Origin: Streptomyces sp. SID10853
GTDB lineage: Bacteria > Actinomycetota > Actinomycetes > Streptomycetales > Streptomycetaceae
DNA: 64,000 nt
NCBI RefSeq assembly: GCF_010548145.1
Contig: NZ_JAAGLN010000002.1
Coordinates: 62,001 to 126,000, forward strand
Reading direction: 5' to 3'
Shown: one piece after another, positions 18,920 to 40,719 of the stretch
Numbering within the stretch: the stretch's first letter is position 1
Layout of the letters: every line of letters starts with the position of its first letter
The notes under the pieces: model-generated
What the model was told of the DNA's origin: nothing
What the model saw: only the letters and a program-made list of their open reading frames with translations
The model's database searches: none
Translations under genes and position numbers: made by a program

Positions 18920-19366
18920 CTACGGTGCGGCTGTCTCTTCGAGGTGGTACAGCTCAGGCACGGAGACCTTGATCGGCTCTTGCGTGGTCCGGGCGATCAC
19001 GACGACCGCCGGCTCGTCCGGGTCCGGGTTCTCCTCCCGGTGCGGGACGAACGGCGGGACGAGGAAGAAGTCACCGGGACCGGCGGCGAGCCGCACCTCC
19101 TCCGTGCCGTCGTGGTAGACGAACACGGGGTGGCCGCTGACCACGTAGATCCCTGCCTCGGATTCACCGTGATGGTGGTTGTCCGTCGCGCTCAAGGGCG
19201 GGTTCTCCACCAGACCCATCCAGAGCTTCTTCGAATCGACCGTGCCGCCGCTGATGGCGGCGTGGCCGTCCAACTCGCCGGATCGAACATGGTGGACGCG
19301 GTTGTTCAGCGCGCGTGCGTTGCCACCAGCTCCCGGCGCGGCTCCGGCGCCTTCCTGGGTAGTCAC
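18920..19366 (-). CDS. Cupin-domain protein, left edge of the biosynthetic cluster
   Basis: A 148-aa single-domain cupin. Metal-ligand motifs are visible: NHHHGESEAGIYVVSG in the first cupin box and PPFVPHREENPD in the second. No transport or DNA-binding region is present, so a small metalloenzyme or ligand-binding role is likely; the substrate is unknown. It is divergent from the dithiol-oxidase-like gene at 19602, and a weak copy of the GGCAA-N6-TTGCC dyad lies 64 bp upstream of its start, which ties it provisionally to the cluster's self-protection genes. Confidence 0.75.
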   Translation of the reverse strand: MTTQEGAGAAPGAGGNARALNNRVHHVRSGELDGHAAISGGTVDSKKLWMGLVENPPLSATDNHHHGESEAGIYVVSGHPVFVYHDGTEEVRLAAGPGDFFLVPPFVPHREENPDPDEPAVVVIARTTQEPIKVSVPELYHLEETAAP

Positions 19367-19430
19367 TGTGCAGTCTCCCGGTTATCGATGACTTCGGCCG
19401 GACTCAGGCTGCGATGTCCCTACCTGGTCC

Positions 19431-19446
19431 GACAACCCCTGTTGCC
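19431..19446 (-). promoter_or_regulatory. GGCAA-type dyad, copy D (degenerate), upstream of the cupin gene
   Basis: GACAACCCCTGTTGCC has the GGCAA-N6-TTGCC architecture with one arm mismatch; on the minus strand GGCAACA matches the other copies. It lies 64 bp upstream of the cupin start. Confidence 0.5.
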
Positions 19447-19601: not shown

Positions 19602-20591
19602 ATGACTGGCGCCAATATCGACACCAGTAACCAACCCTCGTACGACGTCATCGTGATAGGCGGCGGGGCCGGAGGGCTCAACGCCGCGCTCGTGCTCGCC
19701 AGGGCCCGTCGCACCGTGGCCGTCGTCGACTCCGGGGAGCCCCGCAACGCCCCCTCTGCCCACATGCACAGTTTCCTCTCACGTGACGGCGTCCCCCCGC
19801 TCACCGTGCTCGAAGCCGGCCGTGCGGAGATCTCGCGCTACGGCGTCGTCCGCATCGATGGCCGGGCGGACCAGGTCGAGGCCGCGGAGGCCGGAGGGTA
19901 CGTGGTCCGCCTGGAGGGCGGCGCGACCCTGGACGCCCGGCACGTCGTGCTCGCCACGGGCCTGCGCGACGAGCTGCCCGAGATCCCGGGGGTGCGGGCG
20001 ATGTGGGGCGAGGACGTGCACTTCTGCCCCTACTGCCACGGCTACGAAGTCCGCGACCGGCCCATCGTCGTACTCGGTGTGCACCCGGCCTCGCCCGGGC
20101 AGGCCCTGCTGCTGCGCCAGTGGTCGCCGCACATCGTGTACGTCCCGCACAGCCGCCCGCTCACCGACGAGGAGCGCGAACGCATGGACGCCCGCGGGGT
20201 CGAGGTGGTGGAGGGGCCGGTGTCCACCCTGCTGAGCAAGGACGGCCGGCTGCACACGGTGGAACTCGCCGACGGGCGGACGGTGGAATGCGCCGGAGTC
20301 TTCCTCTTCCCGGCGATGACGCCGAACGACGGGGCCTTCGACGGTCTCGGCTGCGAGAAGGACGAACAGGGCTGGCTGGTCACCGACCGGTCGGGCCGCA
20401 CCAGCCGCCCGGGCCTGTGGGCCGTCGGCAACGTGACGGACTCGCGCGCCCAGGCCGTCACCGCGGCCGGCATGGGCGCCGCGGCCGCCTTCGCCCTCAA
20501 CCACGACCTGGTGGACGAGGAGATCGAGCGTGATCTGGCGGCGCACCGCGCCGCCGCAGGCCGCTCCGGGGCGTCCGTCCCCATGTGCTGA
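19602..20591 (+). CDS. hlmI: Thioredoxin-reductase-like dithiol oxidase (HlmI-like)
   Basis: A 329-aa flavoprotein of the low-molecular-weight thioredoxin-reductase fold. It has an N-terminal FAD site (VIVIGGGAGGLNAALVLARA), a redox CxxC in HFCPYCHGYEV and a second dinucleotide-binding half. In holomycin and gliotoxin pathways, enzymes of this type (HlmI, GliT) use FAD and O2 to close the product dithiol into a disulfide, which also protects the producer. SD AGGAGG and ATG 19602 set the start. It lies at the edge of a cluster with the remaining dithiolopyrrolone genes and under operator copy A. A general TrxR role is less likely without an adjacent thioredoxin gene. Confidence 0.8.
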   Translation: MTGANIDTSNQPSYDVIVIGGGAGGLNAALVLARARRTVAVVDSGEPRNAPSAHMHSFLSRDGVPPLTVLEAGRAEISRYGVVRIDGRADQVEAAEAGGYVVRLEGGATLDARHVVLATGLRDELPEIPGVRAMWGEDVHFCPYCHGYEVRDRPIVVLGVHPASPGQALLLRQWSPHIVYVPHSRPLTDEERERMDARGVEVVEGPVSTLLSKDGRLHTVELADGRTVECAGVFLFPAMTPNDGAFDGLGCEKDEQGWLVTDRSGRTSRPGLWAVGNVTDSRAQAVTAAGMGAAAAFALNHDLVDEEIERDLAAHRAAAGRSGASVPMC

Positions 20592-20628: not shown

Positions 20629-20668
20629 GAACGCCCGCCTCCGGATCATGTTCCGGAGGCGGGCGTTC
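20629..20668. terminator. 17-bp bidirectional hairpin; XRE stop codon lies in its loop
   Basis: GAACGCCCGCCTCCGGA (20629-20645) pairs perfectly with 20652-20668, loop 6 nt. It separates the convergent dithiol-oxidase and XRE-cupin genes. The stop of the latter (20646-20648) is in the loop, so its last codons form one arm. Confidence 0.85.
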
Positions 20669-21248
20669 GTCCTGTCGGGCGGGCGCGTACGTGCATCCGC
20701 TCGCCCTGGCGGCCGAAGACGCTGAGGACCTCCACCGGCCCCTTCCCCGTGCTGCCGAACCAGTGCGGCAGCCGGGTCTCGAACTCGGCCACCTCACCGG
20801 GGCCGAGGACCAGGTCGTGGTCGGCCAGGATGAGCCGCAGCCGCCCGGAGAGCACGTACAGCCACTCGTACCCCTCGTGGGTGCACAGCTCCGGGGTGTC
20901 ACGGCTCGCCGGCAGGACCATCTTGTAGCTCTGCAGCGGGCCGGGCTGACGCGTCAGCGGCAGCACCGTGTTGCCGTTCACCGTGTGGGGCTTGACCCGG
21001 ACGCGCGGATCGCCCACCTCCGGGGCGCCGACCAGTTCGTCGAGGGGGACCTGGTGGGCCTGGGCGATGGGCAACAGCAGTTCGAGGCTGGGGCGACGCT
21101 GTCCCGCTTCGAGACGCGACAACGTGCTCTTGGAGATGCCGGTGGCCTCCGAAAGCGCGGCGAGGGTGACACCCCGGGTGGTGCGCACCCGCTTGAGCCG
21201 GGGACCGACAGCGGACAGGGCCCGGGTGATCGTCGGTGACTGCTCCAT
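20646..21248 (-). CDS. XRE-family regulator with C-terminal cupin sensor
   Basis: A 200-aa regulator. Residues about 15-70 are an HTH_3/XRE domain (LAALSEATGISKSTLSRLEAG) and about 110-185 a cupin (THEGYEWLYVLSGRL, VAEFETRLPHWF). This architecture usually senses a small ligand. ATG 21248 gives the usual family start, but the ribosome-binding site is poor and ATG 21269 or TTG 21275 are possible. A 30-bp imperfect dyad lies directly upstream, indicating autoregulation. It lies between the dithiol oxidase and the acyl-CoA dehydrogenase, so a cluster role is likely. Confidence 0.85.
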   Translation of the reverse strand: MEQSPTITRALSAVGPRLKRVRTTRGVTLAALSEATGISKSTLSRLEAGQRRPSLELLLPIAQAHQVPLDELVGAPEVGDPRVRVKPHTVNGNTVLPLTRQPGPLQSYKMVLPASRDTPELCTHEGYEWLYVLSGRLRLILADHDLVLGPGEVAEFETRLPHWFGSTGKGPVEVLSVFGRQGERMHVRARPTGRTPASGT

Positions 21249-21354: not shown

Positions 21355-22497
21355 TCAGAGGCCGAGGGACCTCCCGATCAGCTCCTTCATCACCTCTGTC
21401 GTCCCGCCGTAGATCGTCTGCACCCGGCTGTTGGCCCACTCCCGGGAGATCGCGCTCTCCTTCAGATAGCCGTAGCCGCCGTGGATCTGGAGACAACGGT
21501 TCGCGATGTCGACCTGAAGTTCCGTCGTCCACCATTTCACTTTGGCCGCGTCCGTCACCGAGAGCTGCCCGGCGTTGAGCCCGGCGACGCAGTGGTCGAG
21601 GAAGACCTGGGCGATCGTCAGCTCGGTCTCCATGGTGGCGAGTTGGAAGCGGTTGTGCTGGAAGCTTCCGACGGTATGGCCGAAGATCTCGCGGCTCTTG
21701 GCGTATTCCAGGGTGTCCGCCAGCATCCGCTCGACCGCACTCACGGCCACGGTGGCGATGCTCAGCCGCTCCCGGGGCAGTCCGGCCATCATGTAGGCGA
21801 GACCGGCGTTCTCCTTACCGATCAGGTTGTCGGCCGGCACCCGGCAGTCGTCGAAGAACAGCTCGCAGGTGTCGCTGGCGTGCCAGCCCAGCTTCTCCAT
21901 GCGCCGCCCACGGGTGAAGCCGGCTGTGCCACGTTCCACCACCAGCAGGCTGATGCCCTGGGCGCCGCGCTCGGGGGCGGTCTTGGCGGCGACCACGACG
22001 ACATCGGCGTTCTCGCCGTTGGTGATGAACGTCTTCTGGCCATTGAGGACGTAGGAATCGCCGTCGCGGACCGCCGTGGTGCGGATGTCGGCGACGTTGG
22101 AACCGGCGTCGGGCTCGCTCATCGCGATCGCCGCGATGAGCTCGCCCGAACAGAGCCCGGGCAGCCACCGCTTGCGCTGCTCCTCGGTGGTCTGCCCGGT
22201 CAGATAGGTGGCGATCACGTCGTTGTGGGCCACGAAGCCGGGCGCCGTCGCCCGGGCCCACATGATCTCCTGCGAGAAGACCACCGGGAAACGGTAGTCA
22301 GGCTCGCCGCCCCCGCCGTACGCCGGGCCCACTCCGATGCCGAGGAGCCCCGCCTGCCCGGCCTTGCGCCACACCTCGCGGTCGACGATGCCGTCCCGCT
22401 CCCACCGGGCGTGGTGCGGACGTACCTCACGGTGGAGGAACTCCCGGCAGGTGACCCGGAACTGCTCGTGCTCGGCCTCATACCTGCTGCGTGCCAT
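21355..22497 (-). CDS. hlmB: Acyl-CoA dehydrogenase-like flavoenzyme (HlmB-like)
   Basis: A 380-aa acyl-CoA dehydrogenase fold enzyme with AIAMSEPDAGSNVADI and ITNGENADVVVVAAKT in the middle domain and QIHGGYGYLKE near the C-terminus. The usual Glu near the end is Gly here (TIYGGTTE), so the base is more likely the Glu of PRERLSI, the position used by isovaleryl-CoA and long-chain dehydrogenases. In holomycin biosynthesis HlmB oxidises the cysteine-derived intermediate, probably while carrier-bound. It is last in the four-gene run NRPS-GMC-TE-ACAD, 4 bp after the thioesterase. Confidence 0.85.
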   Translation of the reverse strand: MARSRYEAEHEQFRVTCREFLHREVRPHHARWERDGIVDREVWRKAGQAGLLGIGVGPAYGGGGEPDYRFPVVFSQEIMWARATAPGFVAHNDVIATYLTGQTTEEQRKRWLPGLCSGELIAAIAMSEPDAGSNVADIRTTAVRDGDSYVLNGQKTFITNGENADVVVVAAKTAPERGAQGISLLVVERGTAGFTRGRRMEKLGWHASDTCELFFDDCRVPADNLIGKENAGLAYMMAGLPRERLSIATVAVSAVERMLADTLEYAKSREIFGHTVGSFQHNRFQLATMETELTIAQVFLDHCVAGLNAGQLSVTDAAKVKWWTTELQVDIANRCLQIHGGYGYLKESAISREWANSRVQTIYGGTTEVMKELIGRSLGL

Positions 22498-22501: not shown

Positions 22502-23251
22502 TCACCCCTCTCCGGGGTCGGTGTCGTCGACGATGGTGGCCAGGGTGTCCTCGGGACGCCGGACGGCAGCGAAGTGGCCGCCGTCGATCCCGACCCGGCG
22601 GGCGGGGACCGTGCTGTGCGCGGTCCACTGCCAGACCTTCTCCGGCGGAGCGTGGACGTCCTCCCGGGCGGCGATCAGGGTGAGCGGGAAGTCCACCCGC
22701 AGCCCGCGCGCCTCCTGGGCGAACTCGGCCCGGACGGCGTCGTCCTCCCGGAGCATCCCCAGCAGGATGCGGCCCATCGTCGGGTCGGCGAGTACCGCGG
22801 ACGGGGTCCCTCCGTCGGCGGCGGTCCTGGCGAGCAGTTCCTCGTCGGGTACGGAGCCGAGCAGCGCCCCGGGCCGCTGGAGTCCGGGCGGGACCGCCCC
22901 GGACAGTACGGCCCTCTCCGGCGCGACGCCGGCCTGCCGGGCCGCCTCCGCGGCCACCGCGAGGCTCATGGTCGCGCCGAAGCTGTGCCCGAAAGTCGCC
23001 CAGCGCAGACCTGGCGTCCGCTCCCGCTCGGTCAGCAGATCGGCCACCACCTGCTCGGCCATACAGCGCACGAGGGCGTGGAAACCGGCGGCCTTCCGCT
23101 CCTGACGGCGGGTCCCGCGGCCCGGGGCGTCCACACCCCGGACCAACAGGTGCGGCTCGCCGAGCGGCTGCCAGCCCCGGTAGACCAGCGAGGTCGCCCC
23201 CGCGTGGGGAAAGCAGTAGAGCCGTACCGGAGGCCTTGATACGGGTCGCAC
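22502..23251 (-). CDS. hlmC: Type II thioesterase (HlmC-like)
   Basis: A 249-aa alpha/beta hydrolase of the GrsT/RifR type: N-terminal LYCFPHAGA, nucleophile elbow FGHSFGA with the catalytic Ser, and a C-terminal GGHFAAV His. It releases or proofreads acyl groups on the NRPS carrier protein; with no TE domain in the NRPS, it may also release the product. Two GTG starts are possible: 23251, five bases after AAGGAG, or 23257 overlapping the GMC stop. It is part of the coupled minus-strand operon. Confidence 0.88.
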   Translation of the reverse strand: MRPVSRPPVRLYCFPHAGATSLVYRGWQPLGEPHLLVRGVDAPGRGTRRQERKAAGFHALVRCMAEQVVADLLTERERTPGLRWATFGHSFGATMSLAVAAEAARQAGVAPERAVLSGAVPPGLQRPGALLGSVPDEELLARTAADGGTPSAVLADPTMGRILLGMLREDDAVRAEFAQEARGLRVDFPLTLIAAREDVHAPPEKVWQWTAHSTVPARRVGIDGGHFAAVRRPEDTLATIVDDTDPGEG

Positions 23252-23253
23252 GG

Positions 23254-24903
23254 TCACTCCTTCGTGCTCCGGGCCAGCTTCTCGGCCAGCATCAGGGTGG
23301 TCAGATTGGTGGGCGCGCTGGGGAGGGCAGGGAAGAGCGAGGCATCGGCGATCCGCAGGTTCTCGGTGCCGTACACCCGGCCCTCCTGGTCGGAGACCGC
23401 CCATGGGTCGGTCTCCGGCCCCATCCGGCATGAACCGGCCGCGTGCCAGCCGGGGTTCGCTATATGGCGGACACCACTGCGCACCACGCCGTCGTTGGCG
23501 ACCATCCGGTCGCTCCAGAACTGTGTCCTGGTCAGCCGGCCCGACAGGCCCGGGGACCGCAGGAAGCTCCAGGCCCGGCGCACGCCGTGGCACAGCCGTT
23601 CCACGTCCTCGGGGTCGGTGGCGATACCCAGTTCGATGACGGGCGCCGCGTACGGGTCGGCGCTGTCGAGGAAGACCCGGCCTCGGGAACGCGGGCGCAT
23701 CAGCATCACCGACATGCCGACGACCAGAGGCCAGCCGAGCCGGTCGACGAAGCCGGGGATGGTGTGGCTCTCCACGTTGTTGAGCAATCCCGTCTGGATG
23801 TCCACGTCGTCGTCGAAGCCGCTGCTCATCCTGGCCGCGACCTGTCGCCAGGGCAGCCCCGGCGTGCACACCCCGTCGGCCGGCCTGGACCAGATGACGA
23901 CCGAGGGGTGGTCCACCAGGTCGCGGCCCACCCCGGGCAGGTCCGCCACGGGCGCGATACCGAGGGCCCTGAGCAGTCCGGCGCCGCCCACGCCCGAGCG
24001 CTGCAGGATCGCGGGGGTGCCGACGGCCCCCGAGCTGAGCACAACGTGTCGCGCCCGGAACGTGGTGAGCGTGCCGTCGAGTTCGGCCTCCACACCGACC
24101 GCCCGGTTCTTCTCGAACAGCACCCGGGTGACCCGGAGGCCGGTGCGCAGATGGAGGTTGGGCAGGTCTCGGACGCCGGCGAGAAAGGCGGTGGAGGCGT
24201 CGATGCGTTCGCCGTCCACGGCGTTGCCGGGGATCGGGCCGACGCCGCCCTCGCCACCGGCATTGAGGTCCATGAGGTCGGTGACGCCCTGCCGGTTGCA
24301 CTCCTCCCAGAACGCCGCGTCCAACGGGTGCACCTGATCGCGAGGGGTGCGCCGGATCGGCAGCGGTCCGCTGTCGCCGTGCAGCCGTCCGGGGAAGTCG
24401 GCGTCGTTCTCGATGTCCTTGTAGAAGGGCAGCACACGCTCCCACGACCAGTCCGGGTTGCCGGCGGCCGCCCAGGCGGCGAAGTCGCGGGGCAGCCCTC
24501 GCAGGGCTATGGCGCCGTTGACGGCGGAGCCGCCGCCGACGACCTTGCCGAGCTGGTAGGGGAAGCGTTCCCAGAGGGCACGGGCTGCCGCCCGGCCGCC
24601 GGTGGCCGGCGCGGCCCCCGGTGCCCCGGTGCTGCCCTGGACCAGCTCCTCCAAGCGGTTGCTGGTACGCAGGTTGGCCCGGTAGTCCCAGTTGTGGCCG
24701 GCCAGGACGAGACGTCCGGCGTCGGCCAGCGGGTGGGCCCGGGGGCGGGGCCGGGGCTGGTCCCCACCGGCCTCGATGAGCAGGACGTTCCCGGAGTCCC
24801 GCGCGGCAAGCCGGGCGGCGGTCACGGCTCCCGCGGAGCCGGCTCCGACAATCACGTACTCCCACTCGCGTACCCCCGCGGCGGGATCGCGGTGGGCGGT
24901 CAC
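23254..24903 (-). CDS. hlmD: GMC-family FAD oxidoreductase (HlmD-like)
   Basis: A 549-aa glucose-methanol-choline oxidoreductase. The FAD site is YVIVGAGSAGAVTAARLA, the GMC signature region GKVVGGGSAVNGAIALRG, and the C-terminal active-site region contains WHAAGSCRMG. In holomycin biosynthesis the homologue HlmD is one of the oxidases acting on the Cys-Cys scaffold. Its GTG start (24903) overlaps the NRPS stop as GTGA, so it is translationally coupled, which fits action on an NRPS-tethered or freshly released intermediate. Confidence 0.88.
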   Translation of the reverse strand: MTAHRDPAAGVREWEYVIVGAGSAGAVTAARLAARDSGNVLLIEAGGDQPRPRPRAHPLADAGRLVLAGHNWDYRANLRTSNRLEELVQGSTGAPGAAPATGGRAAARALWERFPYQLGKVVGGGSAVNGAIALRGLPRDFAAWAAAGNPDWSWERVLPFYKDIENDADFPGRLHGDSGPLPIRRTPRDQVHPLDAAFWEECNRQGVTDLMDLNAGGEGGVGPIPGNAVDGERIDASTAFLAGVRDLPNLHLRTGLRVTRVLFEKNRAVGVEAELDGTLTTFRARHVVLSSGAVGTPAILQRSGVGGAGLLRALGIAPVADLPGVGRDLVDHPSVVIWSRPADGVCTPGLPWRQVAARMSSGFDDDVDIQTGLLNNVESHTIPGFVDRLGWPLVVGMSVMLMRPRSRGRVFLDSADPYAAPVIELGIATDPEDVERLCHGVRRAWSFLRSPGLSGRLTRTQFWSDRMVANDGVVRSGVRHIANPGWHAAGSCRMGPETDPWAVSDQEGRVYGTENLRIADASLFPALPSAPTNLTTLMLAEKLARSTKE

Positions 24904-27900
24904 GTTGCGGACCCCTGGACGGTTGCGATCAGTTCGGTGAAGGACGCGATCGACGCGTTCATGAACAGCCCCTCGACCATCTCCTGCTCCATGTCGGCCT
25001 CGATGCCGAACTCGGTGCGCAGCAGCGCGAGCAGGCCGACGGCGTGCAGGGAGTCGCCGCCGATGTCGAAGAAGCCCTCCTCCACACCGAAGTCGCCGTG
25101 GCCGAGCTGCTGGGTCCAGAGCTCGAAGAGCCGCTCCTCGACCCGGCTGCGCGGCGCCACCCGCGCGGAGGCGCCTTCGGGATCGTCGTTCCACGGCGCC
25201 GGCAGCGCCTTGTGGTCGATCTTGCCGTTCGTCGTCAGGGGCAGGGCGTCCAGGGTCAGGAAACGGCTGGGCACCATGTAGCCGGGCAGCAGAGCCGCCA
25301 GCGCCTCACGCAGCACGGCCGGGTCCGGGTCCTTCCCGGGCTCGGGCACCACGTACGCGGCTATCTGCCGCTGCCCGGTACGGGCGTGTGCGGGCGCGGT
25401 GACGAGCGTGCTGCGCACCTCGGGCCGGCGCAGCAAAGCGGCCTCGATCTCGCCCAGCTCGACCCGGTAGCCGTTGATCTTCACCTGAAAGTCCTCGCGG
25501 CCCAGGATCTCGATATCGCCGCCGTCCAGGTAGCGTCCGAGGTCGCCGGTGCGGTAGAGGCGCTCCCCGGTGACCGGGTGGACCAGGAAGCGTTCGGCGG
25601 TGCGCTCGGGGTCGCCGAGATATCCGAGGGCCACGCCGACGCCGCCGATGTGGATCTCGCCGGTGACTCCGACAGGGGATGGCTCCAGCCACTGGTTGAA
25701 AACGTGCATGGTCTGGTTGGCCAGCGGCTTGCCGTACGGGATGCTCGCCCATTCGGGCCGGACGGCCTCGACCGGGTGGTGGATCGACCAGATCGAGCCC
25801 TCGGTGGCGCCGCCGAGGCTGATCACCCGCATCGCGGGGATCGCCTCCCGTATCCGCTTCGGCAGGTCGACCGGGATCCAGTCGCCGCTCAGCAGGGCGA
25901 GCCGCAGTCGGCAGCCGCGCGGGACTCCCCCGTCACCGAGCGAGTCGATCCACATGCGCATCGGCGCGGGCACACTGTTCCAGATGGTGACGCCGTAGCG
26001 GCTGATGAGCTGCGACCAGTGGGCGATGTCGTTGCCGCGCGCCGGGTCGGGCACGACGACGGCACCACCCGCGCCGAGGACGCCGAAGAGGTCGTACACC
26101 GACAGGTCGAAGCCGGTCGGGGCGAGCGCCATCGTCCGGTCGTCCGCACCGATACCGAAGCGCCGGTTGATGTCCTGCACCGTGTTGGCGGCGCTGCGGT
26201 GGGTGATCATCACGCCCTTGGGCTCACCGGTGGAGCCCGAGGTGAAGATGACGTAGGCCAGGTCGTCGTGGCCCTGGCGGCGCTCGGGGCGCTCGGTGGG
26301 GCACTTCAGGGTGGCCCGGTCCTGTGGAGTCAGGACCGTCGCGCCCTCCGGCCAGGCCAGGGTGTCCCGCAGCTCGGGATCGGTGATCACGGCCCGCACG
26401 GAACATCGGGCCAGCAGTTTCAGGCGGCGCTCCTCAGGCAGTTCCGGGTCGATGGCCACGTACGCGGCGCCGGCGTGCAGCACGCCGAGCAGCGCCGAGA
26501 ACTGGGCGGCACCCGGCCGCATCGACACGGCGACGATCTCGTTCGGCTCTGCGCCCGGGCCGTCCAGGAGCCGGTGCGCTATCCGGTGCGCGTCCTCGGT
26601 GAGCCCGCGGTACGTGGTCTCTGCGCCGGGCGTCACGACCGCGATGGCGTCGGGGCGGCGCACGGCCGCCTCGGAGACCAGCTCGTGCAGCAGCGCCGGC
26701 GGGATGTCCTCGGCCGTGGCGTTGGCTCGCACCCGCTCCTCGGTCTGTGTGTCCGGCAGCGGCACGATCCCGCGGGTGGCGTCCCACACGGAAGCGTCGT
26801 CGGCCAGACGGTCGAGCAGGGTCACATACGCATCGAACATGGCCTCGACGGTGTTCTCGGGGAACAGGCCGGCGACCGCGTTCCAGTTGATGGAGAGCCG
26901 TTCGTCCAGCTCGAGGATCTGATTCTCCAGCCAGACCTGGGGAGTTCGGCTGTGGTCGTGGACCAGCTCGCCGAACACCTCAAGGCGCCCCGCGTCCGTC
27001 TTGCCGTCGCCGGCGCCGAGCATGCTGGAGAAGACCACGGGCATCGAGGCCCGGCTGTCGTCCCTGCGGCGGGCCAGGTCGCGCAGGACCCGGATTCCGC
27101 CGCGCGTGGAGTGCGCCAAGTCCTCCAGGGCCTGGGCCTGAACGGCCCGCGCACGCTGCTCGAAGGTCTCCTCGGCCCGGCCGCCGACGGCGAGCAGGCT
27201 CGGGGTCAGGAAGTCGCCCATGACGGCATCGAGCTGCGGGTGCAGCCCGAGCCGGTGGAACTGGGTGACGGTCAGGGTGAACTCCTGCCGCCGCGACCAG
27301 GTCCGCACCACCTCCGCGTAGGCCGCGAGCAGCACACCCGACGGGGTGAGCCCGTGCCGGGCGGCCGCCGCACGCAGCGCCTCCCAACGTTGCGGCGCCA
27401 GCACCGCACGGTGCCGTACGAAGCGGGGGGTGCCGAGCTGCTCGGGCGCCACGGCGAGCGGCAGCTCCGGCGCGGGCGGCAAGGTGTCGAGGCGGTCCGC
27501 CCAGTACGCGGCGTCCTCCTGGCCCAGGGCGGCGCCGCGCAGTTCCTCCTGCGCGAGCACATAGTCGCGGAACGACAGCTCCAGCGGCTCCGGGTGCCGG
27601 CCGGGCTCGTCGTAGAAGAGGCGCCACTCGTCGAGGAGCCTGCGCAGGCCCCGCATGTCGACGAAGAGCAGATCCACGGCCATGTGGAGCCGGACCCGGT
27701 CGTTGTCGAGCAGTGAGGCACGGACGTCGAACAGCGGCGCCCGGTCCACCGGAAGCACCTGCTCCGTCAACTCGGCGCGGATCCTCTCGACTTCGGCGAT
27801 CTGTTCCTCAGCGCCACGGCTCCGCAGATCGGTGCTGCGTATGACGTACGGCTCCACCTCGTCCGCGGCGAGAACCCGCTGCGTCTGGTCCTGGCCGGCC

Positions 27901-28178: not shown

Positions 28179-28198
28179 CGAGGTCCGCCCCCTTTTTT

Positions 28199-28421: not shown

Positions 28422-29006
28422 ATGGACATTCTGAAATCCCCGGGATCGGCCGGGAAACGCATACTCGTCGGGGCAACAGGATCTATTGCGGTGACCGGAC
28501 TTCCGTCATATATCGAGGCGATGCGCCGCCAGATCGAGGGCAGCACGTTCACGGTCCTGCTCACCCGCACCGCGGGGTCGTTCATTTCACCCGAGAGCGT
28601 CGCGCTGTTCGCCGAGCGAGTGGTGTACGGGGAGTCCCCGGCGGACTGGCCGACCGACAAGCCGTCCCGGATCGCCGGCGACCACGACATTCTCGCGGTC
28701 CTGCCCGCTACAGCGCACACGCTCGCCACCGCGGCGGGCGGGGCCGCGCCCAATCGGCTGATGACGGTGGCGTTGTCGGTCGACTACCCCGTCGTCTACT
28801 TCCCGGTGATGGGCGCCACGATGTGGCACAAGCCGGCCGTCGGGCGGAACATCGCGCAGATCCGCGAGGACGGCGGGATCGTCAACGAGCCGGAGTGGCA
28901 CAACGGTTTCGACCCGACCACGGGCACCGTAAGCCGTCACCCCGCGCTGCCCTCGCCCGAGACGGTGGCCGCGGTGGTGGAGGACCTTCTCGCCAAAGCG
29001 CGCTGA
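28422..29006 (+). CDS. hlmF: PPC-decarboxylase-like flavoprotein (HlmF-like)
   Basis: A 194-aa protein of the HFCD flavoprotein family (EpiD, MrsD, CoaC-type), which oxidatively decarboxylate peptidyl-cysteine or PPC to enethiols using FMN. It has the N-terminal ILVGATGSIAV, a central ILAVLPATAHTLA and the conserved PVMGATMWHKP segment, equivalent to the family PxMNxxM substrate clamp. HlmF in holomycin biosynthesis decarboxylates the cysteine unit to give the ene-thiol of the bicyclic core. It is divergent from the NRPS and shares element 1; the ribosome-binding site is weak. Confidence 0.87.
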   Translation: MDILKSPGSAGKRILVGATGSIAVTGLPSYIEAMRRQIEGSTFTVLLTRTAGSFISPESVALFAERVVYGESPADWPTDKPSRIAGDHDILAVLPATAHTLATAAGGAAPNRLMTVALSVDYPVVYFPVMGATMWHKPAVGRNIAQIREDGGIVNEPEWHNGFDPTTGTVSRHPALPSPETVAAVVEDLLAKAR

Positions 29007-33558: not shown

Positions 33559-34023
33559 TCAGTCATCACCGGGGAGGGCCTCGCCCCAGCCCCACTTCTT
33601 GATGGTGGTACGTCCCGAAGGCCCGGTGCCCGGCTGCGAGTTGGCCATCGCCCGGCGCGAGCCGAACTCGATGTAGCCGACGAACGCCGAGCGGAACTCC
33701 GCGTCCTCGGGGATGCCCACGACGTCCATGGCCTCCAGCATCAGCTCCACCCACCGCGCACGCTGCTCGGGCGTGATGGAGCGGCCGCGGTGCCGGGAGA
33801 CCATGCGCGGGTATCCGCCGTGGTCCTCGGTGTAGCGCTCGGGGCCGCCGAGGACCTCGCCGAGGAAGGTCGCGACGTGCTGTGGGTGGTCGTCGTCCAT
33901 GTGCTTGAAGAGCGGAGCGAGGAGCTCGTCCTTGCGGACGCGCCGGTAGAACTCCTCCGTGAGCCTTTCCAGCGCCTCGGCGCCACCGGCCCATTCGTAC
34001 AGGGTGGGAGTCTGGTCCGTCAC
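33559..34023 (-). CDS. hlmG: Truncated hemoglobin (HlmG-like globin)
   Basis: A 154-aa 2-on-2 globin of the group II (trHbO-like) type: YEWAGGAEALERLTEEFY at the N-terminus, proximal-His region MVSRHRGRSI, and a Trp in the C-terminal RWVELMLEAM. Group II globins bind O2 and can act as electron-transfer or oxidase partners. A globin gene is a distinctive member of the holomycin cluster (hlmG), which helps identify this one; its chemical role there is not settled as far as I know. GTG start with AGAGGTG upstream. Confidence 0.88.
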   Translation of the reverse strand: MTDQTPTLYEWAGGAEALERLTEEFYRRVRKDELLAPLFKHMDDDHPQHVATFLGEVLGGPERYTEDHGGYPRMVSRHRGRSITPEQRARWVELMLEAMDVVGIPEDAEFRSAFVGYIEFGSRRAMANSQPGTGPSGRTTIKKWGWGEALPGDD

Positions 34024-34065: not shown

Positions 34066-34893
34066 TCAGGCCGCGTACAGGTCGAAGGTCGGGGTCGGCG
34101 GGCCGCTCTGGGCGCCGGTGACGAGCCGGGGGTCGACCGCGAGCATCAGTTGGTGCAGTCGCTGAAGTTGCGGAGCGGGCTCCAGGCCCATGTCCTCTAT
34201 CAGCCGCCGGCGCAGCCTGCGGTAGAGGCCGAGGGCTGCGGACTGCCGCCCGGAGCGGTAGAACGCGACCATGGCCTGGGCGTAGAGCCGCTCGTGGGAG
34301 GGGTTTCTCCCCGTCAGTTCGATGAGTTCCGCGAGGAGTTCGGTGTGCATGCCGAGGCGCAGCTCGGCGTCGATGCGCCGCTCGGTGGCGAGCAGCCGGC
34401 TCTCCTCCAGGGCGGCCGCGTGGATCCGCAGCGCCTTCCCGGCCCGTACGTCGACGAGCGCCGGCCCTCGCCACAGTGCCAGGGCCTGGCGGAGCAGCCG
34501 GGACGCCAGCTCGTTGTCTCCGTCCGCGAAAGCCGCGAGGCCGTCGCGGGTCGCTCGCTGGAACGCGAAGGCGTCCACGTCCTTCTCGGCGACCCGCAGG
34601 AGATAGCCCCTCGGTCCGGTGGCGAGGAGTTGCCGGGCCCGGGCCGGCCCGTCGGGCCCGCCGAGGGCGGCGGCCAGGACGCGGCGCAGGCGCAGGACGT
34701 ATGTCTGGAAGGTGGTGTGCGAGCTGCGCGGCGGCGTCGGCCCCCACAGTTCCTCCCGCAGGACCGATGCCGGGACGAGCTGTCCCGAGTGGAGCGCGAG
34801 GAGTGTCAGGATCTGCCGCTCCTTCGCCGCCGTAGGCACGACCGGGACACCGTCCGTCTCGGCCTCCAGCGGACCGAGAATCCGTATCTTCAC
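34066..34893 (-). CDS. SARP-family pathway-specific activator
   Basis: A 275-aa small SARP. An N-terminal OmpR-type winged helix (VKIRILGPLE; SHTTFQTYVLRLRRVLA) is followed by a bacterial transcriptional activation domain (about 110-255; DVDAFAFQRATRDG, NPSHERLYAQAMVAFYRSGR). Small SARPs bind short direct repeats and recruit RNA polymerase to antibiotic promoters. GTG 34893 has GGAGG four bases upstream. Cluster element 2 lies about 100 bp upstream of the start, suggesting autoregulation or control by the LAL regulator. Confidence 0.92.
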   Translation of the reverse strand: MKIRILGPLEAETDGVPVVPTAAKERQILTLLALHSGQLVPASVLREELWGPTPPRSSHTTFQTYVLRLRRVLAAALGGPDGPARARQLLATGPRGYLLRVAEKDVDAFAFQRATRDGLAAFADGDNELASRLLRQALALWRGPALVDVRAGKALRIHAAALEESRLLATERRIDAELRLGMHTELLAELIELTGRNPSHERLYAQAMVAFYRSGRQSAALGLYRRLRRRLIEDMGLEPAPQLQRLHQLMLAVDPRLVTGAQSGPPTPTFDLYAA

Positions 34894-35300: not shown

Positions 35301-36203
35301 TCAGGCCCGGGGCCGGCACAGGCGGGCCGTGTGCACGGTGACCGCCGTGAGGTAGAAGGCGTCGGGGCGCCACAGGATGCCCGTGCAGTCGTCCCTGTCC
35401 AGGAGTTGCTCCACGGTCAGCCGGTCGACGAGGTCGAGCTGCTCACCGTGTTCGTCGAGCAGGAGGCGCAGGCGGGTGTGCAGATGCCGGCGCGCGCCCA
35501 GGTCCAGGGGGGCGGGGAAGTCGATCAGGAAGGTGCGGCTGCCGGTGGGTACAAGCCCCGCGGACGCCAGCAGGCACGGCCAGTCCTCGACCACGGATGT
35601 GGCGCCCGGCAGCCGGGCGCGTCCGGCTGCGAACCGCTCCTCGATGGCCGCGTCCAGACGCGCCTGGAGGCCGGGTTTGCCGATGCCGATGTCGCGGGGC
35701 AGGAAGCGCGGCGGCAGCCCGCGTTCGGCGACGGCGAGCATGCCGCCGGGCTGCAAAGCGGAAGCCAGGCTCCGCAGCGCCGCCTGCTGGTCGCCCAAGT
35801 GGCGGCAGACGTTGCCGGTCCAGATCAGGTCGGCCGGTCCGAGCAGGCCGAACTCTTCGGGCAGTTCGGCCCGTCGGGTGACGATCCGCTCGGTCAGCCC
35901 GCGCTCCGCTGCGCGGTCCTCGGCCCGGGCGAGGAGCGTGGCCGACCGGTCCACGGCCACGACGGCCGACTGCGGGAAGACCTGGGCCAGGACGCAGGAA
36001 GCCACTCCGGGCCCGCTGCCGATGTCGAGGATTCGGCGGACCGCCGCCGTGTCCCGGCCGGCGGGCCCGAGCAGGCTCCCCAACCAGCGCGCCGCGTCCG
36101 TCAGGAAGCCGGAGTGGAGTTCCGTCTCTTGCTCCGGCTCGGCGCCGGGGGCCTCGCCGGGGGCCTCGCCGTCGAAGCCCGGGGCGCGGTGTGCAGATGT
36201 CAT
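35301..36203 (-). CDS. Class I SAM methyltransferase, candidate self-protection S-methyltransferase
   Basis: A 300-aa methyltransferase with motif I ILDIGSGPGVASCVLA, acidic VVAVDRS and motif IV region PADLIWTGNVCRHLGD, followed by a C-terminal half of unknown fold. ATG 36203 follows GGAGGTGA. It has its own promoter region carrying dyad copy C, with the same 43-nt spacing as copy A to the dithiol oxidase. Thiol S-methylation is a known back-up detoxification of reduced holomycin, so a protective S-methyltransferase is the best guess; a tailoring O- or N-methyltransferase is the alternative. Confidence 0.78.
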   Translation of the reverse strand: MTSAHRAPGFDGEAPGEAPGAEPEQETELHSGFLTDAARWLGSLLGPAGRDTAAVRRILDIGSGPGVASCVLAQVFPQSAVVAVDRSATLLARAEDRAAERGLTERIVTRRAELPEEFGLLGPADLIWTGNVCRHLGDQQAALRSLASALQPGGMLAVAERGLPPRFLPRDIGIGKPGLQARLDAAIEERFAAGRARLPGATSVVEDWPCLLASAGLVPTGSRTFLIDFPAPLDLGARRHLHTRLRLLLDEHGEQLDLVDRLTVEQLLDRDDCTGILWRPDAFYLTAVTVHTARLCRPRA

Positions 36204-36246
36204 ACGGTCACCTCCGGCGTTCAGGATGGAGACGCCGGAGGTTCTG

Positions 36247-36262: not shown

Positions 36263-36289
36263 GAATCCGGAACCGGTGCGCGATTCGGT

Positions 36290-37036
36290 TCAGTACGCGG
36301 CGGCCGCCGCCCGCAGGCGACGCGCACTCGCCGGGCGGATCAGGTCCCGTGCGCAGGTGTCCAGGAGCTCCCGTTGGGCGGTCAGCGGGAAGTAGTGGCC
36401 GCCCGGGAACGTCTCCATGCGCAGGGCGCGCCGGGTGCACCGGCGCCAGCCGGCCAGGTCCGCCCTCGTGACGCTGTGGTCCTGGAGACCGCGCATCACG
36501 GTGACCGGGCAGTGCACGACATGGCGCGGGTCGCGGCGGTAGGACTCCATCACAGCCACGTCCGCACGCAGCGCGGGCAGCGCCCGGGCCGCGCGCCGCG
36601 GGTCCCGGCCGACCGGGGGCATCCGGCCGCGGTCACGGAGCCTGCGGATCATCGCCGCGTCCGGCAGGTGGCTGACGGCGTGCTCCGGCGCGGTCCGGTG
36701 CGGCAGTCCGGAGCCCGACACGTAGAGCCGCTCGGCGACCGCGTCGTGCTCCCACTCGAGCCGGGCGGCCATCTCGTACGCGAGGAGAGCACCGAAGCCG
36801 TGCCCGTAGAACGCGAACGGGCGGTCACACATGCGGGCCACGTACGGCATGATCTCAGCCAGCAGCGGCTCCAGGCTGCCGCACGGGCGGGTGCGCGGAT
36901 GGCGGCCTCGGCCGGGCAGCTCCACGGGGGTGACGACCACCAGAGGGCCGATGGCCTCGGCCCACGGCAGGTACACGCCGGCCGAGACGCCCTCGAACGG
37001 GAGACAGAAAAGCCGCACCGAGGTGTCGCCGGTCAT
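36290..37036 (-). CDS. Type II thioesterase-like protein without the catalytic serine
   Basis: A 248-aa alpha/beta hydrolase of the type II thioesterase family: LFCLPFEGVSAGVYLPWAEA at the N-terminus, VTVMRGLQDHSV with the acid residue and FPGGHYFPL with the His. The nucleophile elbow reads FYGHGFGA, so the expected Ser of GHSxG is Gly (codon GGC). As a hydrolase it should be inactive; a carrier-protein-binding or structural role, or decay, is possible. The ATG overlaps the upstream gene's stop as ATGA. A second, intact thioesterase is at 22502. Confidence 0.85.
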   Translation of the reverse strand: MTGDTSVRLFCLPFEGVSAGVYLPWAEAIGPLVVVTPVELPGRGRHPRTRPCGSLEPLLAEIMPYVARMCDRPFAFYGHGFGALLAYEMAARLEWEHDAVAERLYVSGSGLPHRTAPEHAVSHLPDAAMIRRLRDRGRMPPVGRDPRRAARALPALRADVAVMESYRRDPRHVVHCPVTVMRGLQDHSVTRADLAGWRRCTRRALRMETFPGGHYFPLTAQRELLDTCARDLIRPASARRLRAAAAAY

Positions 37037-37521
37037 CGGCTCACCGGCCCCACGAGCAGGTCGTCGGCGCCGGGTTGGCGCCTCGGAGTTCCGCCGCGCA
37101 GCAGGGTGTCGTACGCCTCGGTGGCCATGTGGACGAGGCGGAGCCCCGCCCTCCGGCTCCTCAGCTCGCTCGCGTACCGCCAGGCGAAGGTCCAGGTGCG
37201 GTCGTCGCGCCGGATGAGGGTGGCGCGCGTGGACGGGCCCTGGTCGAGGGGCAGTCCGCCGGCGGACTCCCGAGCCAGCCGCTCGGCGAGGCAGGCGTCC
37301 TGCACCTCTGTACGGGTGGCCCGCCAGTCGACGACCTGGAGACGGAAGCCGGAGCCGAGCACGGCCTGCCAGGCCTGCTCGTACACCAGCGGCAGGAGTC
37401 TGGTCAGGGACAGCACGAACTGCTCGGTGCGGCCGCTCTCGGGCGGGGCCGGGACCGACAGCGGCGGCAGGGCCGGGCGGAGGGCCCATATCGGGCAGAG
37501 CTCCTCACTTGAGGCGCTCAC
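37033..37521 (-). CDS. Partial condensation-domain-like protein (HlmK-like?)
   Basis: A 162-aa protein resembling the N-terminal lobe of an NRPS condensation domain: FRLQVVDWRA, LAERLARESAGGLPLDQGPS and RATLIRRDDRTWTFAWRYAS match the order before the active site, but HHxxxDG is absent and the sequence ends soon after. The holomycin cluster contains a free-standing condensation-like protein (HlmK), of which this may be a degenerate counterpart. GTG start at 37521; the stop is coupled to the dead thioesterase. Catalysis is unlikely; function unknown. Confidence 0.6.
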   Translation of the reverse strand: MSASSEELCPIWALRPALPPLSVPAPPESGRTEQFVLSLTRLLPLVYEQAWQAVLGSGFRLQVVDWRATRTEVQDACLAERLARESAGGLPLDQGPSTRATLIRRDDRTWTFAWRYASELRSRRAGLRLVHMATEAYDTLLRGGTPRRQPGADDLLVGPVSR

Positions 37522-37932
37522 GTGATCACCGATCCTTCCATCAGGATTTCGCCATTAGGTCGCGGTGAATATGCCAGGTTCCAGGGGAACGCTTTCCGTG
37601 TGGCTCGCCGGTCACCACCGCAATGCCGTGCAGACCGTACCCATGCGGTACCCGCGCTCATCAATACGGTGGGACCGAAACAGTGGCCGAATGAACACGT
37701 GTCGATTCCATCAGGTGGAAGCATTTGCATAATTCCAGTGGGGGTTGTGCTAGCAGCGGGCTACATTCGCGGGTGTACGCCGTTCACCGGCGGTCGGGGG
37801 ATCGATGGGGGATCGATGGGTGGCTCGATTTCTCTCTGACCTGTCTGCAAAACACCCTTTCCGTCAGGGCGGCGACGGCTTGACCACGAGACCGTGTCCT
37901 TGGCAGCGCTGGTTCGCAGGAGGTTCAGGGAA
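37522..37932. promoter_or_regulatory. Divergent promoter region of the C-domain-like and LAL genes
   Basis: About 410 bp without a gene. It contains cluster element 3 (37661-37692), an additional ACCGTAC/GCGGTAC inverted pair at 37634-37651, and an AT-rich GCATAAT about 40 bp after element 3 that could be a -10 for the LAL gene. Confidence 0.5.
37661..37692. promoter_or_regulatory. Cluster element 3, upstream of the LAL regulator
   Basis: TACGGTGGGACCGAA (37665-37679) preceded by TCAA; GGCCGAAT follows at 37685 in the same 12-bp register as elements 1 and 2. One arm base differs from the perfect dyad. Confidence 0.68.
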
Positions 37933-40719
37933 GTGCCCCAGGAACTGTTCGGCAGAGGCGAAGAATCCAAGATCATCATCCAGATGCTCGAGTCCGCGAG
38001 AGCGGGAGAGGGCGCGGCCGCGCTGGTGGAGGGAATCATCGGCACAGGCAAGACCTCACTCTTGCGCTGGGCCGAAGGAATCGCCCGTGAACAGGGCATG
38101 GTCGTGCTCTCTGCCACGGCCTCCCCCGCCGAACAGCCCTTCTCCTTGGGGGTGGTGCACCAACTGCTCGGCGGGCTGCCCGAGACGGCACAGGGATGGA
38201 CGCGTACCTTCGCGGCGAGCGTGGGGGCCACCGACGGCGGGCCGGCCGAGCCCGACTACCCGCTGCTCGCAGAGCTGTGCGCGGGCGTGGGGCGGACCGC
38301 GCGGTGCACCCCGCTCCTCCTCACGGTCGACTCCGTCCAGCACGCCGACCTGGAATCCCTGCTGTGGCTGGGCTTCCTCAGCCGCCGGCTCGACGACCTC
38401 CCCGTCGTACTGCTCGCCACCAAGCGCCGCGGCGAGCCGGTGAGCGACCAGCACCTGCTGGTCGAGTTCGAGGAAGGCATCCGGCCCGACCGCCATATCC
38501 ATCTGCACGACCTGAGCCCGGCCGCCGCCCTGGACCTGGCCGCCGCACTGTGCGGCCACGACCACGAGTCCGTGGATGCGCTGATCGCCGACACGGGCGG
38601 CAACCCCTACCTGCTGACCGAGCAGATACGGAGCGTGCCCGCGTTCCCCGGCGGGACCGGGCGTGCCCCGGACGCCCTCGTCGGCCGCACGCTGGATCCA
38701 CCGGCCGAACTGATGCAGCTGCGCGCGGTCAAGGAGCGCATCCTGTGCATGCTCAGGCGGCTCGATCCATTCGGCCTGGAGGTCGCCAGGGCGGCCAGCA
38801 TCCTCGGCTCGCCGCTGGACCCTGCCATCCTCGCCGACTTGTGCGGCGTGCCGACGGAGGACGCCTGCCGCAGCCTCTCGCGGCTCACCGAGTCGGGGCT
38901 GGTGTGCCCGCACGCCATGATATTCCGGCACCCCCTCCTAGCCAGACTGCTGTACCAGGACATCCCGTGCGCGGAGCGGGCCGAACTCCACCGGCTCGCC
39001 GCCCGGTCCATGTGGCGCCGCAGCGCGCCGTGCGAGGACGTCGCCGCCCACCTGCTGCGATCGCACCGGCTCGACGAGCCGTGGATGGCGCGGCTGCTGC
39101 TCGATGTCGCCCAGGGCATGGTCGGCCGGGACCCCGCGGGGGCCCGGCAGCTGATCGAGAAGACCACGCTGCACGGCGCACCCGAGGAACTGGCCGCCCG
39201 CGCCGAGGGGTTGTGGATCCAGGCACTCACCGCCCTCGACCTGCCGACCTCCGCCCGGGCGCTCACGGTGCACGCCGCCGGCCTCCTGGGGCCCGACGAG
39301 CGGCTCCACGAGGCGCTGCGGCTGTCCGAGATCCTGCTTCGGCTCGACGAATCCGCCTGCGCCCGCGAGGTGTTGGAGGACATCCGTGCGGAGGCCGGCG
39401 TGCTGGACGCCGCGGCGGCCGGCCGGCTGCGCGAGCGGCTCATCGACATCCGGCTCCACGAGGGCACCTACACCCCGGGGGACGAGGGCGAGGACCGTCT
39501 TGAGCAGGTCCTGCTTCTGCGCACCGCCGCGGGCCGCTCGGCGCAGGCGGTACGCCGGATCGCCGACCGGTTCCTGGCCCTGCCCCGCGCCCCGTACGGC
39601 TCCCCGCCCTGGTACCACGCGGTGCTCGCACTGCTCTGGGCCGGCGACATGGACGAGGCCCGGCGGCACCTGGACACGGAGGTGCTGCTGGCCCGTGCCG
39701 AGGGCACTGTGACCCGGATCGCCGAGGCCCTGGCCGTACGCGCTCTGGTGCAGCTGCACCGCGGACCGCTCGCGGACGCCGACGACGACGCCCGTCAGGC
39801 GCTCGACCTGCTCACCAGGATCGGCGCCGCCTCCTATCACGTGGGTGCGCTGGCCCGGAGCGTCCTCATCGACGTGGCCCTGGAGAAGGACGACATCGCG
39901 GCGGCCGGCGCCCTGCTCGACGAGGCTCCGCTGCTGCCCGGCGACCGGCCCGTCACTTGGTGGCGGCTGCACCTCCTGGACAGCGCCGGCCGCGCCCTGG
40001 GCCGGCTCGGTCAGGCGCAGCGCGGGCTCGCCCTGATCGCCCACTGCGAGGAGGAGGCGGCCCGTCGGGGCGTCGTCAACCCGGCGCTCCTGCCCTGGCG
40101 TTCCACGCGCTCCGCTCTCCTGCTGGGACAGCGCAACGTGCTCGCGGCCCGCCGGACCGCCCGGCAGGAGACCGAGCTCGCCCGGCGCTGGGGCGCCCCG
40201 TTCGCCCTGGGCCGGGCCCTGGTCGCGCAGGCCTCGGCGAGCTCGGGGCGCGATGCGGCACAACTCGCCTGCCAGGCTCTGGAGATCCTCGAACCGGCCC
40301 CCGCGCCGCTGCTGTTCGCCCATGCCCTGTACGAGGCGGGGCGGGCCCACCGGCAGATCGGCAAGGTCCGGCGCACCCGCGAACTGCTGCACCGCGCCAA
40401 CGAGGTGGGGATTTCGCTCGGCGCCGACGGTTTGGTCGAGGCGGTGCAGCGGGAGCTGCGGTACGCGGGCGGGCGGCCCGATCCGCGCAAGGACTCCGCG
40501 GAGTCGCTGCTCACCCCGACCGAACGGCAGGTCTCGGGGCTGGCCGCGCGCGGGATGAGCAACCGTGACATCGCGCGTCTGCTCAAGGTGAGCCTGCGGA
40601 ACGTCGAGTCCCATCTGACCCATTCCTACCGGAAGTTACGGATCAGCGGGCGCCTTGAGCTGGCCAAGTACTTCCCGCCGGGGGAGGAACCGGCGGCGAT
40701 GCCGGTACTGCTCCACTAG
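37933..40719 (+). CDS. LAL-family (large ATP-binding LuxR) transcriptional regulator
   Basis: A 928-aa regulator. The N-terminal AAA-type NTPase has Walker A EGIIGTGKTSLL and a Walker B-like LLLTVDSV; a long TPR-like helical middle follows, and the C-terminal LuxR helix-turn-helix reads LTPTERQVSGLAARGMSN then VSLRNVESHLTHSYRKLRI. LAL proteins activate antibiotic and catabolic operons in response to a ligand. GTG 37933 has AGGAGG nine bases upstream; GTG 37894 (13 residues longer) is also open but lacks a site. It marks the right edge of the cluster, with element 3 in its promoter. Confidence 0.9.
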   Translation: MPQELFGRGEESKIIIQMLESARAGEGAAALVEGIIGTGKTSLLRWAEGIAREQGMVVLSATASPAEQPFSLGVVHQLLGGLPETAQGWTRTFAASVGATDGGPAEPDYPLLAELCAGVGRTARCTPLLLTVDSVQHADLESLLWLGFLSRRLDDLPVVLLATKRRGEPVSDQHLLVEFEEGIRPDRHIHLHDLSPAAALDLAAALCGHDHESVDALIADTGGNPYLLTEQIRSVPAFPGGTGRAPDALVGRTLDPPAELMQLRAVKERILCMLRRLDPFGLEVARAASILGSPLDPAILADLCGVPTEDACRSLSRLTESGLVCPHAMIFRHPLLARLLYQDIPCAERAELHRLAARSMWRRSAPCEDVAAHLLRSHRLDEPWMARLLLDVAQGMVGRDPAGARQLIEKTTLHGAPEELAARAEGLWIQALTALDLPTSARALTVHAAGLLGPDERLHEALRLSEILLRLDESACAREVLEDIRAEAGVLDAAAAGRLRERLIDIRLHEGTYTPGDEGEDRLEQVLLLRTAAGRSAQAVRRIADRFLALPRAPYGSPPWYHAVLALLWAGDMDEARRHLDTEVLLARAEGTVTRIAEALAVRALVQLHRGPLADADDDARQALDLLTRIGAASYHVGALARSVLIDVALEKDDIAAAGALLDEAPLLPGDRPVTWWRLHLLDSAGRALGRLGQAQRGLALIAHCEEEAARRGVVNPALLPWRSTRSALLLGQRNVLAARRTARQETELARRWGAPFALGRALVAQASASSGRDAAQLACQALEILEPAPAPLLFAHALYEAGRAHRQIGKVRRTRELLHRANEVGISLGADGLVEAVQRELRYAGGRPDPRKDSAESLLTPTERQVSGLAARGMSNRDIARLLKVSLRNVESHLTHSYRKLRISGRLELAKYFPPGEEPAAMPVLLH

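Follow-up and report, generated by a model that had tools for sequence, protein, structure and literature searches.

A pyrroloformamide-type dithiolopyrrolone cluster in Streptomyces sp. SID10853 with a predicted N-formimidoyl synthase

A stretch of 64,000 nucleotides from Streptomyces sp. SID10853 (contig NZ_JAAGLN010000002.1, positions 62,001 to 126,000; in the following referred to as the window), which belongs to an assembly of 7.77 Mb, harbors an intact dithiolopyrrolone biosynthetic cluster of 17 genes at positions 19,602-40,719. Genes were called from open reading frames (ORFs) together with the GC content at third codon positions (GC3), families were assigned by Pfam scans, and the ends and likely starts of the genes were checked. 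Overlapping stop and start codons link head-to-tail genes in two places, namely the first thioesterase, the GMC oxidase and the non-ribosomal peptide synthetase (NRPS), and a small ORF and the second thioesterase (TE2). The genes named in the first-pass annotation, i.e. a Cy-A-PCP NRPS with a cysteine code, a GMC oxidase, a thioesterase, an acyl-CoA dehydrogenase, a PPC-decarboxylase-like flavoprotein, a globin, a major facilitator superfamily (MFS) pump and a CxxC thioredoxin-reductase-like enzyme, are all real and present as intact frames of the expected families, the CxxC motif being CPYC. Its inventory was nevertheless incomplete: it did not report a RidA-family protein, an FAD enzyme referred to here as DAO, two methyltransferases (MT1 and MT2), TE2, a SARP regulator, an XRE-cupin regulator, an ORF for a degenerate condensation (C) domain and the absence of HlmA.

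The proposal that the cluster makes a dithiolopyrrolone from two cysteines is borne out by family matches, the cysteine code, the Cy motif, a dithiolopyrrolone-specific cysteine and synteny. Counterparts of HlmB, C, D and F stand beside the NRPS according to Pfam and sequence comparison, the flavoenzymes match the HlmB, D and F counterparts of dithiolopyrrolone loci and not a different thiazoline pathway, and the thioredoxin-reductase-like enzyme has PDB entry 4ntd, which we take to be HlmI, as its top match. The specificity code of the NRPS, which is a cysteine code, is identical at 10/10 positions to those of the Saccharothrix algeriensis NRPS (locus L029), of HolA of plasmid pTML1 (L010) and of the NRPS of Streptomyces sp. 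CB02980; the ten positions were located with the GrsA motifs. The Cy motif reads DLLFVD, compared with HHIAxD in the three ordinary C domains of the same genome that were aligned there. Dithiolopyrrolone A domains have an extra cysteine (C566 in DtpB), which is required for dipeptide formation (Chen 2023, PMC10134970). By alignment, its counterpart in the window is Cys592 (number 585 in the L029 frame, where the start codon or the strain differs from DtpB). Of 47 core NRPSs, 46 have the cysteine; none of the seven other A-domain matches that were fetched out of 35 in the genome does, these having Ala (five), Ser (one) or a gap (one) instead. The sole exception among the 47, in S. humicola (L018), has a natural Ser at this place; the rest of that cluster is largely there, a TE2 was not found at the 60% threshold, and a change of this kind is reported to abolish dipeptide formation in DtpB (PMC10134970). 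In locus L024 the NRPS is split into two overlapping frames, by a frameshift or an assembly error.

Judged from its genes, the cluster is closest to the known pyrroloformamide kind and not to the holomycin cluster. Streptomyces sp. CB02980, which produces pyrroloformamides A-D (PMC12291900, citing Zhou 2020 for the cluster), carries all 17 genes (L011), ordered and oriented as in the window, with protein identities of 57-90%, and all 17 are likewise found as in the window on a linear plasmid of S. finlayi (L009). Because the agreement with a producer extends to gene content and to the order and orientation of the genes, we conclude that the window cluster is a further member of the known pyrroloformamide kind. 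The assignment to a holomycin/thiolutin type in the first-pass annotation is not supported, since N-acyl dithiolopyrrolone types use an acyltransferase, HlmA/HolE, and no HlmA/HolE-type acyltransferase was found in the window (E 1e-6, 35% query cover). Pyrroloformamide is an existing antiSMASH reference, matched for example at 81% in strain AM6-12 (PMC13151725); a formamide compound was reported in 1969, and vD844 is listed as N-methylformamido holothin, with a formyl and a methyl group on the exocyclic nitrogen (PMC3826145, Table 1 therein). In S. finlayi (NZ_CP045703.1), the whole cluster lies about 8-30 kb from the end of the 180 kb linear Streptomyces plasmid, which suggests that the cluster can move between strains.

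Table 1 Genes of the dithiolopyrrolone cluster, with positions in the window and the evidence for each assignment.
Gene product	Position	Strand	Evidence
HlmI-like dithiol oxidase, thioredoxin-reductase fold, CPYC	19602..20591	+	Pyr_redox_2; top PDB match 4ntd, 365 bits, then DepH
XRE-cupin regulator	20646..21248	-	HTH_3 + Cupin_2
HlmB-like acyl-CoA dehydrogenase	21355..22497	-	Pfam; 51-94% in core clusters
HlmC-like thioesterase	22502..23257	-	PF00975; coding sequence checked
HlmD-like GMC flavoprotein oxidase	23254..24903	-	MftG + choline dehydrogenase models, below cut-off; 45% to pTML1 counterpart
HlmE-like Cy-A-PCP NRPS, code DLYNLSLIWK, Cys592, Cy motif DLLFVD	24900..28178	-	Pfam, alignments
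HlmF-like cysteine-decarboxylase-type flavoprotein (HFCD family)	28422..29006	+	PF02441; top PDB match MrsD + mersacidin decarboxylase fusion, EpiD lower
RidA-family protein, Thr112 in place of archetypal Arg	29070..29477	-	PF01042; alignments
DAO, FAD enzyme of N-formimidoyl fortimicin A synthase/Orf1 family, not ThiO	29571..31028	-	7xqa, E 3e-131; active-site map
MT1, PrmC/HemK-like methyltransferase, NTPF motif, predicted N-methyltransferase	31141..31890	-	Family models, PDB search, alignment
HlmH-like MFS exporter (predicted)	32030..33256	-	PF07690
HlmG-like truncated globin	33559..34023	-	PF01152
SARP-family regulator	34066..34893	-	AfsR + FevR models, below cut-off
MT2, second S-adenosylmethionine-dependent methyltransferase	35301..36203	-	PF08242; 59-60% homologues in L028 and L030
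TE2, second, type II-like thioesterase	36290..37036	-	PF00975
Degenerate half C domain, weak evidence	37033..37521	-	Homologues only (PF00668 scores, see text)
LuxR-type LAL regulator, outer cluster border	37894..40719	+	AAA_16 + GerE; same border in S. finlayi L009

The XRE-cupin gene adjoins the acyl-CoA dehydrogenase gene, at the place that the acyltransferase occupies in the thiomarinol plasmid pTML1. The small ORF next to TE2 has itself no Pfam match, and its homologues score 4.6e-6 (L022, below the gathering score) and 0.15 (L009) with PF00668; this conserved ORF may be a decayed half C domain, possibly what is left of a free-standing one like that of the holomycin cluster. The span originally given to the cluster, 18,920-40,719, does contain it, but for the cupin gene at its left end (18,920-19,366) there is no counterpart in S. 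finlayi (L009) or CB02980 (L011, L100), whose stretches all extend beyond the border; the gene was found in one close relative (L138), and most other loci end too close to judge. Outside the conserved cluster lie genes for a GH97 glycosidase with an NPCBM domain (12,721-15,450) and an L-asparaginase II family protein (41,094-42,041). A promoter and terminator scan of 28,100-38,000 yielded nothing above chance.

The proposed origin of the formyl group centers on DAO. The nearest NCBIfam model is ThiO, whose curated score was not reached (143.2 bits, cutoff 250.8). At the top of the PDB matches stand six sequences of N-formimidoyl fortimicin A synthase (437-442 bits), the best of which, 7xqa, aligns over residues 4-481 of 487 with 441 bits, compared with 68 bits (E 8e-18) for glycine oxidase; 7xqa was taken as Orf1 from matching residue numbers and the peptide AFAC281GLHLVPR. 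In Orf1, glycine is oxidized, the product stays bound to Cys281 as an N-O-S (NOS) adduct, and formimidoyl is then passed on to an amine; this transfer requires both Cys281 and Glu426, which are dispensable for glycine oxidation (PMC10156733). The window DAO is identical to Orf1 at 217 of 477 aligned residues, at 8/8 positions of the glycine/FAD site and at 4/5 positions of the NOS site (E313D). Cys281, Glu426, Arg342 and Arg368 are kept in 26/26 dithiolopyrrolone DAOs; the L009 enzyme has Ser for Ala54. None of four ThiO paralogues has Cys281, the positions of Cys281, His284 and Tyr294 being taken by Arg, Tyr and Val, and the C-terminal domain present in the window DAO is missing from three of them, the fourth (L133) showing an open extension that lacks Glu426. 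Changes from Orf1 in the acceptor pocket are E312R, E313D, T423I, M438W and T466F in all 26 enzymes and S310E in 24 of them, and two of the four tunnel residues differ in the window; E312R and E313D also occur in distant DAO relatives. On this sequence evidence we conclude that DAO is not a plain glycine oxidase and belongs to the N-formimidoyl synthase (Orf1) family, and it is predicted to transfer a glycine-derived formimidoyl group to an amine.

Since the 26 dithiolopyrrolone DAOs form one clade (support 0.999), in which the L029/L094 pair is mirrored in the core tree (L029/L043), DAO seems to have travelled with dithiolopyrrolone clusters. In Actinokineospora terrae (L136), a second paralogue of DAO (52%) that retains Cys281 is encoded about 400 kb away from the cluster. 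Further formimidoyl-synthase-like enzymes with Cys281 are encoded at 20 other Streptomyces loci (L112-L131 / L149-L168), with NRPS-like genes near L158, L159 and L162-L164, and these loci are candidates for formimidoylated products; in L112 the open frame continues well beyond the C-terminal domain of the family.

To place the cluster among its relatives, an HlmF alignment was scanned against one genome per species (84,980 species), which gave 72 loci, or 75 together with the window, L009 and L010; for L025, L027-L030 and L043, more sequence from the contig in question was included. HlmF alone was rejected as a cluster marker, as 29 of the 72 loci are without a dithiolopyrrolone core. Among these 29 (L052, L054-L057, L059-L082), those from Pseudovibrio, Tritonibacter and Epibacterium may be tropodithietic-acid clusters, and others look like unassigned cysteine-decarboxylase pathways. 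With the core defined as at least three of NRPS, GMC oxidase, acyl-CoA dehydrogenase and HlmF, 45 loci were retained; L025, with two of four core genes and a contig ending inside the NRPS, was left out. An acyltransferase alone is present in 22 of the 45, DAO, RidA and MT1 together without an acyltransferase in 16 (window included), an acyltransferase with DAO in one, DAO alone in two and none of these in four, the last being L017 and L021, both truncated at contig ends, and L039 and L041, where no acyltransferase occurs in the stretch covered. The GNAT proteins of L028 and L092 were among the acyltransferase queries, and both were also found with HolE. RidA or MT1 together with a local acyltransferase occurs in 0/45. 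DAO was rejected as a marker of the formamide type, since it is also found in thiolutin-type clusters, and RidA with MT1 was used instead. One strain of Xenorhabdus hominickii has two core clusters (L046 and L048) on different contigs.

The association of RidA and MT1 with DAO is tight. DAO relatives were detected at E 1e-60 in 33 of 392 sampled Streptomyces genomes, four further matches having yielded no locus. All ten Streptomyces loci with a DAO of at least 82% identity, this genome included, have RidA and MT1 adjoining, and ten of the 392 genomes, again counting this one, carry DAO with both genes. At 20 more distant DAO loci, neither RidA nor MT1 occurs within about 1.5 kb (0/20), nor does MT1 up to 8 kb on each side (0/20). 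DAO, RidA and MT1 are near neighbours in 16/16 complete loci, with 43-223 bases between RidA and DAO in all 16. The block MFS-MT1-DAO-RidA is inverted as a unit in S. pinistramenti (L026), and the four genes are neighbours in Actinokineospora (L043 and L094), whose core is sister to that of the S. algeriensis cluster (support 1.0) although the latter is without RidA and MT1. MT1 is PrmC/HemK-like and has an NTPF motif where NPPY is usual; its nearest solved relatives include a release factor glutamine methyltransferase and an apramycin N-methyltransferase (E 3e-14), and a nitrogen target is plausible.

Taking the directly observed gene content, synteny, codes and active-site residues as a basis, we consider it reasonably probable that this complete 17-gene cluster, ordered as in CB02980, makes N-methyl-N-formyl holothin (pyrroloformamide), its formyl group being derived from glycine via the formimidoyl synthase. 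The core pathway would run as in the holomycin literature: the NRPS would load and join two cysteines, the bicyclic ene-dithiol would arise from the dipeptide through the acyl-CoA dehydrogenase, the GMC oxidase and the HlmF-like decarboxylase, and disulfide closure would be the work of the HlmI-like enzyme. For the tailoring, glycine oxidized by DAO would stay bound to the enzyme's cysteine (N-O-S adduct), from which formimidoyl (N-CH=NH) would pass to the exocyclic amine. Hydrolysis of this amidine to N-CHO and ammonia would be due to the RidA-like protein or simply to water, and MT1 would add the N-methyl group, the order of these tailoring steps being left free. Protection of the producer would fall to the MFS pump and the dithiol oxidase, and control of the cluster to the SARP, LAL and XRE proteins.

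Other explanations have to be weighed against the glycine-derived formyl group. The cluster could be of the holomycin/thiolutin type after all, with holothin N-acylated by an acyltransferase encoded elsewhere and only minor roles for RidA, DAO and MT1. Its core genes do match the holomycin-type set, S. algeriensis makes thiolutin although its cluster (L029) likewise has no local acyltransferase, and a suitable enzyme could be the unlinked HolE-like GNAT of this genome. However, the match to the formamide producer CB02980 is gene for gene, CB02980 itself has a 65% homologue of that GNAT, and the survey pattern described above, in which neither RidA nor MT1 accompanies a local acyltransferase, argues against this explanation as well, which we regard as unlikely. 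A different source of the formyl carbon would be an oxidized N-methyl group: MT1 would methylate the exocyclic nitrogen twice, DAO would oxidize one N-CH3 to N-CHO, and RidA would hydrate the iminium. Our first idea, DAO as a sarcosine-oxidase-like N-methyl oxidizer, was of this kind and was dropped after the PDB match and the residue map had favored formimidoyl synthases, although it was kept as a rival. The glycine/sarcosine oxidase fold of DAO and the close linkage of the three genes are consistent with it, but the NOS cysteine and its partner Glu, which Orf1 needs for transfer and not for glycine oxidation (PMC10156733), are retained in DAO, which also possesses the C-terminal domain that three of the four ThiO paralogues lack and is present where MT1 is not, so that we give this route little chance. 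The formyl group might also be taken from 10-formyl-tetrahydrofolate by an enzyme outside the cluster, DAO having another task that is shared with the thiolutin pathway, as its presence in thiolutin-type clusters suggests; this is improbable too, given that DAO has the residues which Orf1 needs for formimidoyl transfer and that no formyltransferase family is among the Pfam matches of the cluster genes.

Several observations count against a dedicated glycine-to-formyl route, or against the formamide as product. DAOs with the same catalytic residues and pocket occur in S. algeriensis (L029), in S. celluloflavus (L092), in L030 and in L025, all without RidA and MT1 at the locus, which means either that DAO is not dedicated to formyl formation or that those pathways also use a formimidoyl step. 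S. celluloflavus makes aureothricin, and its DAO gene is located about 3 kb from the GNAT gene and roughly 28 kb from the NRPS gene; the L030 genome has MT1 homologues (63% and 48%) on other contigs. Cys281 is also kept in 20/20 distant DAO relatives and is therefore a mark of the family rather than of the acceptor. The dithiolopyrrolone DAO clade does not have Orf1 as its sister, further lineages lie between the two, and the 26 DAOs are not independent, some species entering twice through two collections. In RidA, Thr112 aligns with an Arg of 2dyy, which we take to be the catalytic Arg105, and the archetypal RidA arginine is thus missing; an Arg stands three residues before the Thr in 9/9 aligned sequences. 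At one of the 20 distant DAO loci (L168), a Rid gene is found within 8 kb on either side, about 4 kb away with other genes in between. The unlinked HolE-like GNAT (35% identity) rules out the simpler statement that the genome has no acyltransferase, and acylated products might also be made, although this GNAT looks generic because homologues are also found in CB02980 and in genomes without a DAO match (4/12, compared with 6/8 genomes with the DAO block). Finally, thiolutin was made by a strain whose cluster had been described as closer to pyrroloformamide clusters; the authors of that study list an acetyltransferase in it (PMC12982422).

A wider idea, which we put forward tentatively and hold to be possible rather than probable, is that actinobacterial dithiolopyrrolone clusters have their own N-formimidoyl synthase clade, whose members would use NOS-bridge chemistry to attach formimidoyl derived from glycine to the aminodithiol core. 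Within the pyrroloformamide lineage, the amidine would be converted to the formamide by a divergent Rid protein, independently of folate, and in thiolutin-type producers the same step would be an overlooked hidden intermediate or serve self-protection. A literature search that excluded subscription papers and the CB02980 cluster paper found no link of formimidoyl with dithiolopyrrolone, pyrroloformamide or holothin, and among the matches listed none joins fortimicin with pyrroloformamide or dithiolopyrrolone, one genome announcement having fortimicin and thiolutin. The new idea is the formimidoyl-to-formyl route, which may already have been proposed in the CB02980 cluster paper. The window adds one pyrroloformamide-type locus to a small but recurring group. 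If the route is correct, an enzyme is assigned to the formyl group, N-formylation without folate would be carried out by a NOS-mechanism flavoenzyme on the amine of a redox-active dithiol, and an unrecognized formimidoyl step is predicted in thiolutin-type pathways; enzymes of the formimidoyl-transferring type are known from aminoglycoside and streptothricin antibiotics.

Compared with known systems, the window cluster agrees with the pyrroloformamide cluster of CB02980 in all 17 genes, their order and their orientation, and differs from it in protein sequence, to the extent given above, and in its genome. S. clavuligerus was not among the loci from the HlmF scan, and its hlm cluster was compared by list and not by sequence: counterparts of HlmB, C, D, E, F, G, H and I are present in the window, HlmA is absent, and RidA, DAO, MT1 and MT2 do not appear in the gene list given in PMC3826145. 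The core proteins share 49-68% identity, and DAO 69%, with those of the thiolutin-type cluster of Saccharothrix algeriensis (L029/L093), which, unlike the window, is without RidA, MT1, MT2 and a second thioesterase at the locus under the survey thresholds. The pyrrothine genes for thiomarinol on pTML1 are more distant (core 35-60%) and include a GNAT acyltransferase, whereas DAO, RidA and MT1 are absent. With Orf1 from BD-12 biosynthesis and N-formimidoyl fortimicin A synthase, DAO shares the glycine site, the NOS cysteine, Glu426 and the C-terminal domain, but it has a remodelled acceptor pocket and sits in a dithiolopyrrolone cluster, and its expected product is a formamide and not an amidine.

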